A DNA stretch of 64,000 nt from Rhodospirillales bacterium (lineage in GTDB: Bacteria; Pseudomonadota; Alphaproteobacteria; Rhodospirillales; Casp-alpha2): the NCBI GenBank assembly GCA_017644185.1, contig JAEPMA010000003.1, forward strand, positions 372,001 through 436,000. Reading direction: 5' to 3'. A program made the translations under genes and the position numbers. This document shows positions 17,264-64,000 of the stretch, in pieces. The number at the start of each line of letters is the position of its first letter. The stretch's first letter is position 1. The notes under the pieces were generated by a model. That model made no database searches. It was not told the DNA's origin and was given only the letters and a program-made list of their open reading frames with translations.

Positions 17264-17483
17264 GGATAGGCTCGCAGAAGAAAATTGGAAATTAAGGCGC
17301 TGTACGCCATTTGGCGCGGAGTATAGCCATTGCCAGGCTTCGGGCAAGCGCGATCCCTGGAAACGGGCCGGCCTTTCTGTTGCCGGGTTGGAGCAATTTC
17401 GATGGAATATTAAAGATGGTTAATAATTTATTGATATTACATGAAATTCGAATGTTCTTCAGATTTTACTTGAGAATCCGCGC

Positions 17484-17512
17484 TTGACCGGAACGCACGC
17501 ACACCCTTAAAT
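17484..17512 (+). promoter_or_regulatory. Candidate sigma-70 promoter upstream of the EI24 gene
   Basis: TTGACC (17484-17489) and TTAAAT (17507-17512) are separated by 17 bp, within a 292-bp AT-rich gap between the divergent PfkB and EI24 genes. The expected transcript begins near 17519, 37 bases ahead of the ATG. The rest of this gap (17264-17483) holds AT-rich sequence with TTAA motifs but no gene that I can support. Confidence 0.45.
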
Positions 17513-17555
17513 CATTAGGATCACTGCATTTTCCTAGGAATCAGGCCGAATCAAT

Positions 17556-60726: not shown

Positions 60727-61326
60727 TTATGCGGGGAGAATGCCCCGTTTCCGCAGCTCTTCCAATAGGGGAAGCAGGGGTAACCCGAGGACCGTGAAAT
60801 AGTCTCCGTCTATATTCTCGAACAATTGAGCTCCCCGGCCTTCAAGCAAGTAGGCGCCAACTGACGTCAGGACCCGTTCACCTTCGTCGGTAAGGTAGTT
60901 CTCGATGAATTCGTCGCTCAATTCACGCACATGCATGTCGGCAACGGAAACGTGTGACCAGACAACATTTGCGCTCGTCTTGAGGCATACCGCGGAAATC
61001 AGCTGATGCGTGCGACCGCTGAAAGCCGTCAGATGGTCATGGGCTTCGGTCATATCGGCCGGCTTATCGAACAACCGGTCACCGAGTGCCAGTACCTGGT
61101 CGCAACCGATTACCAAATCTTCCGGGTCTGTTTTTACGGCTGAAGCTTTCGCTACTGACAAACGCAACGCCAATTCTTCGGGGGAAGCGCCGTCGTCTAG
61201 AGACTCACGCTTAATCTTGTCTTCATCAACGCCGGCATCACACCAGTCGAAACGAACCCCGGCATTCTCAAGCACCATTCGCCGGGCACGGCTTTTGGAG
61301 GCCAGAATAAGTCGTGATGCGCTCAC
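60727..61326 (-). CDS. Maf family nucleotide pyrophosphatase
   Basis: A 199-residue house-cleaning enzyme that hydrolyses modified or canonical dTTP/UTP-type nucleotides. Features are LILASKSRARRMVLENAGVRFDW at the N-terminus, VIGCDQVLALGDRLFDKP with the catalytic Asp, and the C-terminal ENIDGDYFTVLGLPLLPL. It overlaps the ppsR stop by 4 bp. dTTP versus m7GTP type (YhdE or YceF) is not resolved. Confidence 0.94.
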   Translation of the reverse strand: MSASRLILASKSRARRMVLENAGVRFDWCDAGVDEDKIKRESLDDGASPEELALRLSVAKASAVKTDPEDLVIGCDQVLALGDRLFDKPADMTEAHDHLTAFSGRTHQLISAVCLKTSANVVWSHVSVADMHVRELSDEFIENYLTDEGERVLTSVGAYLLEGRGAQLFENIDGDYFTVLGLPLLPLLEELRKRGILPA

Positions 61327-62147
61327 GGGGCGTCTTCATCCCCCTGGAGTCGCGCCAGATGCTGGAGGATGGTTGCTGCGGTTTCCTCGATCGAGCGCCG
61401 GGAAACATTGATCGTCGGCCATTCATTCTCGGTGAAAAGCCGCCGCGCACTGTTCACTTCTTCTTTCACCGCTTCTTCATCCACGTAATCCGTGTCGGGG
61501 TCCTGGTCGAGAAAACGAAGCCTTTGGCGGCGGATCTCGATCAGGCGTTTCGGGTCATTCGTCAAACCAACCACAGCCGGCCCATCCTTCAAAAACAACT
61601 CTTCCGGAAGCGGACACCCCGGTACATAGGGGATGTTGGCTGCTTTGATTCCACGGTTTGCGAGATAGATACAGGTCGGCGTTTTCGACGTTCGCGACAC
61701 CCCAACCAGAACAACATCGGCGTTGCGGAGTTCGTGGGTCATCTGCCCATCGTCGTGGGCAAGCGCGAACTGCATCGCCTCGATCCGGTTGAAATATTCC
61801 TGGTCCATCGCATGCTGACCGCCGGGCCGAGGTTTGCTCTTTGCGTTCAGATAAGCCCCGAGCGCCGCGACGACCGGATCCAAGACAGGAATGCATGGGA
61901 TCTGGTTCATGCGGCAACCCTCTTCGAGGGCGAGACGATTTTTCTCATCGACCAGGGTAAAGATCACGAAACCCGGTTGCTCACGTATCCGTTCCATCAC
62001 TTCACGCACCTGATCGACGGTGCGTACCATCGGCCACAGATGCTCGCGGACCTGAATATCATCGAACTGGACGAGGCATGCGCGGGCGAGCAAAGTCACC
62101 GTCTCACCAGTGGAGTCCGAAACCAGATGGAGATGAAATTCCTGCAT
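61323..62147 (-). CDS. ppsR: Pyruvate, water dikinase/PPDK regulatory protein (PPRP, DUF299)
   Basis: A bifunctional kinase and phosphorylase that switches PEP synthase or pyruvate phosphate dikinase on and off. The 274-residue protein has the P-loop-like GVSRTSKTPTCIYLANRGIKAANIPYVPG and an N-terminal FHLHLVSDSTGETV. It is the gene that borders the Caulobacter origin opposite hemE (there called DUF299), and it starts 430 bp from hemE here. Confidence 0.95.
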   Translation of the reverse strand: MQEFHLHLVSDSTGETVTLLARACLVQFDDIQVREHLWPMVRTVDQVREVMERIREQPGFVIFTLVDEKNRLALEEGCRMNQIPCIPVLDPVVAALGAYLNAKSKPRPGGQHAMDQEYFNRIEAMQFALAHDDGQMTHELRNADVVLVGVSRTSKTPTCIYLANRGIKAANIPYVPGCPLPEELFLKDGPAVVGLTNDPKRLIEIRRQRLRFLDQDPDTDYVDEEAVKEEVNSARRLFTENEWPTINVSRRSIEETAATILQHLARLQGDEDAP

Positions 62148-62199
62148 AACGCCGTCCTTCGGCCCCCGGATAACCGCCTTATAAGGCAGGGGATGAAAT

Positions 62200-62208
62200 T
62201 GTGGATAA
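62200..62208 (-). promoter_or_regulatory. DnaA box, perfect consensus
   Basis: TGTGGATAA on the plus strand is the reverse complement of TTATCCACA, the E. coli R-box consensus, with no mismatch. Confidence 0.75.
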
Positions 62209-62449
62209 CTTACAAGGCTCTAAAATCGGTCTTTAATACCCATAACGAGCTTACGGGATACACACGTTGTCCAAATGTGTAAATCTCTGAAGTCCCCAAT
62301 AACGGCTTGGGATAACATGAAAACCCCAAGTTCCTGCGGTTTTAGAGAGTTTTTAGGTAATCAGCAAAGGGTATTGGAATCATTGATACTTTTTCCGGAA
62401 CTGAAAAATACTTGCGGCGCGGTGGCAATAAACATATGGATGCGCCACG

Positions 62450-62458
62450 TCTGGATAA
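62450..62458 (-). promoter_or_regulatory. DnaA box, one mismatch
   Basis: TCTGGATAA, one change from TGTGGATAA, with the same orientation as the 62200 box. The next box begins 2 bases after it. Confidence 0.55.
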
Positions 62459-62460
62459 CC

Positions 62461-62469
62461 TGTGGATGA
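62461..62469 (-). promoter_or_regulatory. DnaA box, one mismatch
   Basis: TGTGGATGA, i.e. TCATCCACA, one change from consensus and close to the G-box type (TGATCCACA) of Caulobacter oriC. It follows the 62450 box closely, giving a tandem pair. Confidence 0.55.
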
Positions 62470-62498
62470 CACATAATCCCCAGGATTCATTGGTCCAA

Positions 62499-62527
62499 TT
62501 ACAACTACTATATTCTTTATATATAGA
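62499..62527 (+). promoter_or_regulatory. Candidate hemE promoter within oriC
   Basis: TTACAA (62499-62504) and TATAGA (62522-62527), 17-bp spacer. The -10 is the left arm of a perfect palindrome TATAGA-G-TCTATA (62522-62534) whose centre is a GANTC site. Transcription through the origin from this promoter would couple hemE to initiation, as described for Caulobacter. Confidence 0.45.
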
Positions 62528-62577
62528 GTCTATAGAAGTAAGCCCGGAGCTCACGAAGCGAGCGAAAGACCCACACG

Positions 62578-63645
62578 ATGCCTCTTAATTCCCAGTCCTC
62601 AGCATCCTCGGAACGTTCGGCAAAACCTTTCCTTCGGGTTTTCGAAGGGGATGTAGTTTCACCTCCCCCCATCTGGATGATGCGTCAGGCCGGGCGGTAT
62701 CTGCCGGAGTACCGTGAAATCCGTGCGGGGATCAGCTCGTTTCTGGAGTTTTGCTATACCCCGGATGCCGCGGTCGAGGTAACACTTCAACCGTTGCGCA
62801 GGTTCGGTTTCGATGCGTCGATCCTTTTTGCGGATATTCTAGTCATCCCTGATGCTTTGGGTCAGAGGGTGACGTTCAAGGAGGGGGAGGGCCCTGTTCT
62901 GGAGCCGATCCGGGATGCGAAGGGCTTGGAGATCCTGAACGTCGACGGGGTGATCGATCATCTGGCGCCGATTTTCGAAACGTTGCGTCGGTTGTCCGTG
63001 GAGATTCCAAAGACCACGGGGTTGATCGGTTTTGCCGGGTCGCCCTGGACAGTCGCCGTCTACATGGTCGAGGGAAAAGGCCGGACGGAATGCGAGCGTG
63101 CGCGAGCGTGGGCATACCGAAATCCCGATGAATTCTCGAAACTGATGGATGTCCTGGTCGATGCGACGTCCCGGTATCTGATCGAACAGGTGAAGGCCGG
63201 CGCTGAGGTACTGCAGCTGTTCGATAGTTGGGCTGGCGTGCTTTCCGTCTCTCAATTCAAATCGTTAGTGATCGAACCGACCCGTCGCATCGTAGAAAAC
63301 GTGAAAGCATCGGCGCCTGATGTGCCGATCATCGGTTTTCCGAGGCAGGGTGGAGTGATGATTCCCGAATACGTGAAACAAACCGGCGTCGATGGGGTGT
63401 CTTTGGATCATTCCGTGCCGCTCGATTGGGCGATGCGGGAAATCCCGGAAACCTGCGTGTTGCAGGGGAACCTGGATAACCGTGTGCTCGTCGTGGGCGG
63501 AGATGCGCTGGACCGGGCTGTGGATGATATTCTAGAGCAAACGCGAGATCGACGGTTCGTGTTCAACCTGGGTCATGGGATCGTACCGCAAACACCACCC
63601 GAGAATGTCGGGCGCGTGATCGACCGTATCCGGGGCAAGCGATGA
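62578..63645 (+). CDS. hemE: Uroporphyrinogen decarboxylase
   Basis: It decarboxylates uroporphyrinogen III to coproporphyrinogen III in heme synthesis. The 355-residue protein has [19 protein letters not shown] (substrate-binding Arg residues), [20 protein letters not shown] and [19 protein letters not shown], and ends [24 protein letters not shown]. Its stop overlaps the hemH start (ATGA). The gene borders oriC on its rightward side. Confidence 0.97.
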
Positions 63646-64000
63646 AAACCGCCGTCGTCCTGTTCAATCTGGGCGGCCCTGACAGTCCGGACGCAGTCGA
63701 ACCGTTTCTGTTCAATCTGTTTTCAGATCCGGCGATCATCCAGGTCCCTCAGCCGTTTCGGTGGCTTTTGGCGAAGCTGATCTCCAGACGCCGCGCGCCG
63801 ATCGCGAAAGAGATCTATGAAAATCTGGGTGGGAAATCACCGTTGCTCGAACTGACCGTTGAGCAGGCGCAGGCGCTGGAAAAGCAGTGTCCCGATCTTG
63901 GTGAGGTTAAAACCTTCATCTGCATGCGCTACTGGCATCCGATGAGCGATGCCACGGCGGCAGAGGTCAAGAAATTCGATCCGGATAAAATCATCCTTCT
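63642..64000 (+). CDS. hemH: Ferrochelatase (partial, N-terminal)
   Basis: The first 119 codons of the enzyme that inserts Fe2+ into protoporphyrin IX; the frame runs off the window. It begins [29 protein letters not shown], the family start, then [11 protein letters not shown] and [19 protein letters not shown] overlap with hemE shows co-translation. The hemE-hemH pairing right of oriC is typical of alphaproteobacteria. Confidence 0.93.

Follow-up and report, generated by a model that had tools for sequence, protein, structure and literature searches.

A probable chromosome replication origin between ppsR and hemE in an undescribed alphaproteobacterial genus, with a conserved ATCCCC box and triplet array

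We place the chromosome replication origin (oriC) of this Rhodospirillales bacterium, with a probability of about 95%, in the 430-bp gap between the genes ppsR and hemE at positions 62148-62577 of the window (the whole stretch of 64,000 nucleotides analysed here, G000:C26:372001-436000, from a genome of 4.16 Mb in 32 contigs). The sequence-only reading of this DNA had inferred an origin at the same place, and that inference is supported by a turn of the GC skew, the proximity of parS sites, a cluster of DnaA boxes, a kept gene pair, and the match of a model of a periodic array; the support is thus one of skew-turn location, conserved anatomy, and spacing. We regard the site as a largely ordinary oriC, at the place where Caulobacter has its own, and its interest lies in an ATCCCC box with an array of CNA triplets and in a possible link of that array to residue 187 of DnaA. 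The result locates the origin for an undescribed alphaproteobacterial genus and describes a predicted unwinding array, ATCCCC/CNA, that is kept across the order and in part of the class.

The limits of the flanking ORFs and their matches to PF03618 and PF01208 (Table 1) agree with the gap and gene pair that had been read from the sequence, and the layout is divergent as claimed, with the left gene on the minus strand and the right gene on the plus strand. We take the PF03618 ORF to be ppsR (DUF299; PMC1914354), and the ferrochelatase-like ORF that comes after hemE on the right side is presumably hemH. Left of ppsR, a Maf protein, shikimate dehydrogenase, CoaE, and an RNase_T-family exonuclease are all encoded on the minus strand. 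The sequence-only reading had called the gap the longest non-coding one in the window, a claim that ORF coverage bears out at one of three thresholds. An overlapping plus-strand ORF (61314-62282) covers the left part of the gap and leaves an ORF-free remainder of 295 bp (62283-62577), which ranks first, third, and fourth by length among the window's ORF-free stretches at ORF thresholds of 100, 130, and 150 aa, respectively, one of the longer stretches being the cut end of the window. An Rfam scan of 61000-64000 at E<=1 returned zero matches.

Table 1. Features of the probable origin and its flanks, in window coordinates; counts are of the seven genomes of the genus unless gaps are named.
Feature	Position	Strand	Evidence or conservation
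Presumed ppsR / COG1806 / DUF299 (Kinase-PPPase), left flank	61323-62147	-	PF03618, E 1.7e-96
Very probable oriC, whole ppsR-hemE intergenic region	62148-62577	.	Skew minimum 62,673; kept gene pair; parS nearby
Perfect DnaA box TTATCCACA, left part of the origin	62200-62208	-	Same-strand box 52-53 from ppsR in 7/7, perfect in 6
Inverted hexamers TACACA-N11-TGTGTA	62259-62281	.	6/7
Weak box-like TTATCCCAA, 2 mismatches	62307-62315	-	GGATAAC in 7/7
AATCATTGAT element	62378-62387	.	AATCATTGA in 6/7, AATCGTTGA in the seventh
DnaA box TTATCCAGA, 1 mismatch	62450-62458	-	<=1 mismatch in 4/7
DnaA box TCATCCACA, 1 mismatch	62461-62469	-	Identical in 7/7
Non-canonical box TAATCCCCA, 2 mismatches, ahead of the predicted unwinding array	62474-62482	+	7/7; ATCCCC in 29/29 gaps
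DnaA-trio-like array; top CAA TTA CAA CTA CTA, minus strand 3'-GTT AAT GTT GAT GAT-5'	62496-62510	-	
AT-rich stretch, 80% AT over 40 bp, presumed duplex-unwinding element	62498-62537	.	TATATA-type core kept in the genus
hemE, uroporphyrinogen decarboxylase, right flank	62578-63645	+	PF01208 (URO-D), E 2.3e-117

A minimum of the cumulative GC skew of the whole replicon at the gap had been proposed as one check on this location, and along an unbroken 124 kb of the own contig the lowest value (-1722) falls 96 bp beyond the gap, at window position 62,673. This minimum is shallow and a second dip at C26:451276, about 17 kb right of the gap, is nearly as deep (-1678), so that the own contig alone places the origin only loosely; the 10-kb block to the right of the gap at C26:446001-456000 has a negative skew (-0.027). 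Because the assembly is divided among so many contigs, we examined the chromosome-wide skew in G003, a genome of the same genus in a single contig of 3.89 Mb, from which 20 stretches of 20 kb were sampled. Here the stretches at 1, 200, and 400 kb have a negative skew, which comes close to zero at 420-440 kb, is positive in the stretches from 440 kb to 2.40 Mb, and is negative again from 2.60 Mb onward. Within 400-460 kb the minimum lies at 432,996, 56 bp inside the hemE match (the gap runs from 432,492 to about 432,930), and the opposite turn lies between the stretches at 2.40 and 2.60 Mb, the antipode of the gap being at about 2.38 Mb. This is the two-arm pattern of an origin at the ppsR-hemE gap, with a turn to positive skew at the gap and a turn back on the far side of the chromosome, and the proposed check, as applied to the own contig and to this relative, speaks for the location. 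In G052, from another family, a local minimum lies about 3.6 kb from the gap, and in G013, from the same family, the minimum of the 60 kb examined lies 22 kb from it, in a flat zone of near-zero skew.

Perfect parS sites are found on the hemE side at C26:444320, 444401, and 446342, about 10-12 kb from the gap. The same arrangement, with perfect sites at about 10-16 kb on the hemE side, appears in all five genomes searched, a reversed control pattern giving 0 matches, and G052 has two extra one-mismatch parS sites closer to the gap.

In many bacteria oriC adjoins dnaA, and the gene is here on the same contig (C26:206978-208546), 226 kb from the gap, which would favour an origin at dnaA, with the hemE gap a regulatory region that carries DnaA boxes. 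We reject this placement as highly improbable, since the own contig has neither a box cluster nor a skew turn at dnaA: sampled 10-kb blocks at 180-260 kb, around the gene, have skews of -0.057 to +0.002, negative or near zero on both sides, and the 20 kb around it contain three scattered one-mismatch boxes without a cluster. In G052, moreover, dnaA (position 1) stands among stretches of positive skew; in G013, the interval from dnaA to the gap has almost no skew and fits either location. The records of G024 and G052 begin at dnaA, so that base 1 of these records is not the origin. Across the eight relatives with both genes on one contig (G001, G003, G008, G013, G014, G030, G041, and G046), dnaA and the origin are about 90-255 kb apart.

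The ppsR-hemE gap, where we place the origin, contains one perfect DnaA box and two one-mismatch boxes 2 bp apart, just as the sequence-only reading described, all three on the minus strand. Dinucleotide shuffles of the gap average 0.119 boxes at no more than one mismatch, and 1 in 1,000 reaches the three found in these 430 bp; the cluster exceeds chance expectation, as looked for in an origin. In 264 kb of own sequence, one more 430-bp stretch reaches three boxes, none of them perfect (L012:289). These three one-mismatch boxes occupy about 110 bp (L012:289-394; C26:456289-456394), roughly 22 kb right of the origin, and could form a DnaA-titrating or regulatory site.

The AT-rich stretch that had been noted near hemE is likewise present: the gap is 55.6% AT compared with 39.6% for the window, and its richest 40-mer, which begins at 62498 and overlaps the triplet array, is 80% AT. 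This is not the window's maximum, which is 85% at 17409, and 28 overlapping 40-mers reach 80%. The 85% 40-mer belongs to a stretch of 208 bp (17348-17555) without an ORF of at least 100 aa. Two further elements of the gap are kept in the genus. The inverted hexamers are possibly weak DnaA sites or part of the ppsR promoter; a family-wide reading of TACACA-N11-TGTGTA was dropped, as even loose patterns match only 14 of the 29 gaps compared. The other element, at 62378-62387 and reading AATCATTGA in most members, has a T-rich run on its right.

Both the gene pair and the internal spacing of the gap are conserved. We detected ppsR in 55 of 61 genomes, and hemE is divergent at 28 of the 30 ppsR loci returned (the own genome included in both counts), the other two being at contig ends. 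The named relatives found through ppsR are four metagenome-assembled "Rhodospirillales"/"Rhodospirillaceae" bacteria and, further off, Sneathiella chinensis. A class-level draw gave ppsR in 80 of 115 genomes, own included, and a divergent hemE in 55 of 60 stretches; one of the five others, G112, is cut by a contig end. Within the genus (seven genomes, own included) distances from ppsR are rigid, with the minus-strand box at 52-53, TCATCCACA (minus strand) at 310-314, and TAATCCCCA (plus strand) at 323-327, and an AT-rich element of the TATATA type lies between TAATCCCCA and hemE. For comparison beyond the genus, we assembled 29 gap sequences of 393-525 bp from the own genome and its relatives, with Sneathiella added, a set that includes close and hence non-independent relatives (L018/L019; L041/L043/L044).

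The strongest feature shared by the 29 gaps is ATCCCC (29/29), followed after 10-15 bases by five CNA triplets on the top strand, which read 3'-GNT-5' on the opposite strand. Scored with the middle base ignored, this array reaches at least 8 of 10 in 29/29 gaps versus 1/580 dinucleotide shuffles. Over the 145 units of the top strand, the first base is C in 142 and the third is A in 131, both frequencies being inflated by selection because the score rewards these very bases, and the middle base is T in 77, A in 56, and C in 12. A profile model of the array, trained on 22 origins outside the genus, finds, across 264 kb of own sequence, a single match with E below 1 (62473-62530; E 7.9e-8) and likewise a single one in 400 kb of G003, where the match is the gap (E 3.7e-8); the next-best matches have E values of 4.9 and 4.4, respectively. 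At class level, with a cut-off of E<=0.05, 26 of 60 stretches match the model versus 0 of 60 reversed ones, and the array score reaches 9 in 14 of 55 gaps versus 16 of 2,750 mononucleotide shuffles. The middle bases of these 14 gaps are A 26, T 22, C 21, and G 1, and many class-level gaps are without a clear array.

Divergent genes probably have their promoters in the gap between them, and the inverted hexamers could be promoter parts; on this account the shared elements might be there mainly for the transcription of the two genes, regulated by DnaA, and the skew turn might coincide with the gap through gene layout. Promoters, however, leave unexplained the chromosome-wide skew turn, the nearby parS sites, and the nearly constant spacing of box and periodic array in 29/29 gaps, and we consider this account of the gap extremely unlikely. 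Promoter and origin roles can coexist in the gap.

For the gap as an origin, we infer by analogy DnaA occupancy, the place of strand opening, and helicase loading. The boxes at 62200, 62450, and 62461, together with TAATCCCCA at 62474, would receive DnaA, which would then be guided onto the minus strand of the three-base-periodic array. The AT-rich stretch adjoining hemE would open, helicases would load on it, and two forks would depart in opposite directions.

Such an arrangement resembles the basal unwinding system of B. subtilis, composed of DnaA boxes 6/7 and DnaA-trios according to the available parts of PMC6669920, PMC10721633, and PMC8287927; the last of these, in the portion available, predicts such a system in 1755 of 2070 origins and gives a rule by which a DnaA box must have three or more 3'-NAN-5' trios no farther than 16 bp away. 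When anchored on ATCCCC, the one box tried, the array of the window shows no three consecutive 3'-NAN-5' units in that distance, so that it is not filed as a strict DnaA-trio member although its layout is alike, with a box and an adjoining triplet-periodic array beside AT-rich DNA. With this sole anchor, 12 of the 29 gaps pass the rule. The array may nevertheless be an ordinary trio module of the B. subtilis type, degenerate in places and read in no lineage-specific way, which would be compatible with oriC. The box, the spacing, the period of three, the nearly invariant 3'-G, and the AT-rich flank all agree with such a module, and in several relatives one can make out the second box of the pair; the outcome of the published rule speaks against it, as does a trio-strand central base that is A in only 77 of 145 units, and we hold it to be possible but rather doubtful.

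Another reading of the array takes DnaA itself into account. In the B. subtilis structure, as the available part of PMC10721633 describes it, Arg202 and Glu228 touch the trio guanine and Asn187 the central adenine; with T or G in place of this adenine, opening is slower and initiation reduced, C being better tolerated. The same text states that conservation of these contact residues is not universal, and it allows for DnaA homologs that recognise a variety of sequences. The own DnaA, aligned with the 8btg chain (E 1.5e-118), has His at 187, Lys at 202, and Glu at 228, the equivalent positions having been counted by hand on the alignment and then checked by index. Across the DnaAs of 63 genomes (64 loci read, G003 twice), the 187-equivalent residue is Tyr in 49, His in 9, Phe in 2, and Asn, Ser, and Val in 1 each, with the 202-equivalent Lys and the 228-equivalent Glu in 63/63. 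The kept residues are those that contact the conserved base (3'-G), and the replaced residue is the one that contacts the relaxed central base, a correlation drawn without a contrast group of Asn187 lineages having pure GAT arrays. G107, the only genome with Asn at this place, has a mixed array too (CAA CGA CTC CTA CAA).

Alphaproteobacterial origins may thus use a relaxed 3'-GNT-5' trio, its centre mostly A or T, because Tyr or His replaces Asn187 in their DnaA and the guanine contacts are kept; this is a tentative proposal, to which we give slightly less than even odds. If it is true, opening would be specified by a 3'-G every three bases together with the ATCCCC box and not by a central adenine, strict 3'-NAN-5' searches would overlook many unwinding sites in the class, and the reading of DNA bases by DnaA would vary among lineages. 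Our search for literature on DnaA-trios and alphaproteobacteria found only work on Epsilonproteobacteria; the supplementary figures of PMC8287927 and PMC10721633 may show trios by phylum.

The closest known counterpart is the origin of Caulobacter crescentus (Cori), which, according to the available text of PMC1914354, sits between hemE and COG1806, and therefore between the same genes as here, as the sequence-only reading had noted. Shared with Cori and the hemE-COG1806 origins of that text are the flanking genes, a gap of about 400 bp, DnaA boxes, an AT-rich stretch, and the skew shift. Unlike Cori, the gap here is without a perfect CtrA site and without an IHF consensus site: scans of it gave 0 matches for the CtrA pattern TTAA-N7-TTAA, with four loose TTWW-N7-TTWW matches (a raw count), and 0 for the IHF patterns WATCAN5WTR and WATCARNNNNTTR. 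The genome does have a CtrA gene (409 bits, cut-off 350) and also a GcrA gene. Several origins, accepted or predicted, have few CtrA sites or lack them, and such sites do not define the origins of the class; as far as the available portion of the review PMC4468827 goes, they are not seen in origins except in Caulobacter species and possibly Rickettsia, so that their absence here is unsurprising, and the present origin is probably without direct CtrA control of the Caulobacter kind. An IHF site is among the origin features in the available text of PMC1914354, which does not demand it of every genome, and the element at 62378 is possibly the place of a diverged site for IHF or another bending protein.

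The likeness to the B. subtilis unwinding system lies in the order of parts: a box, a spacer, a triplet array with a nearly invariant 3'-G, and then AT-rich DNA. The genus differs in that ATCCCC and the array are not separated by a second canonical box. The centre of the trio is A in B. subtilis, whereas here it is A or T (and in some units G) on the trio strand, and where the B. subtilis DnaA has Asn187, the own DnaA has an aligned His.
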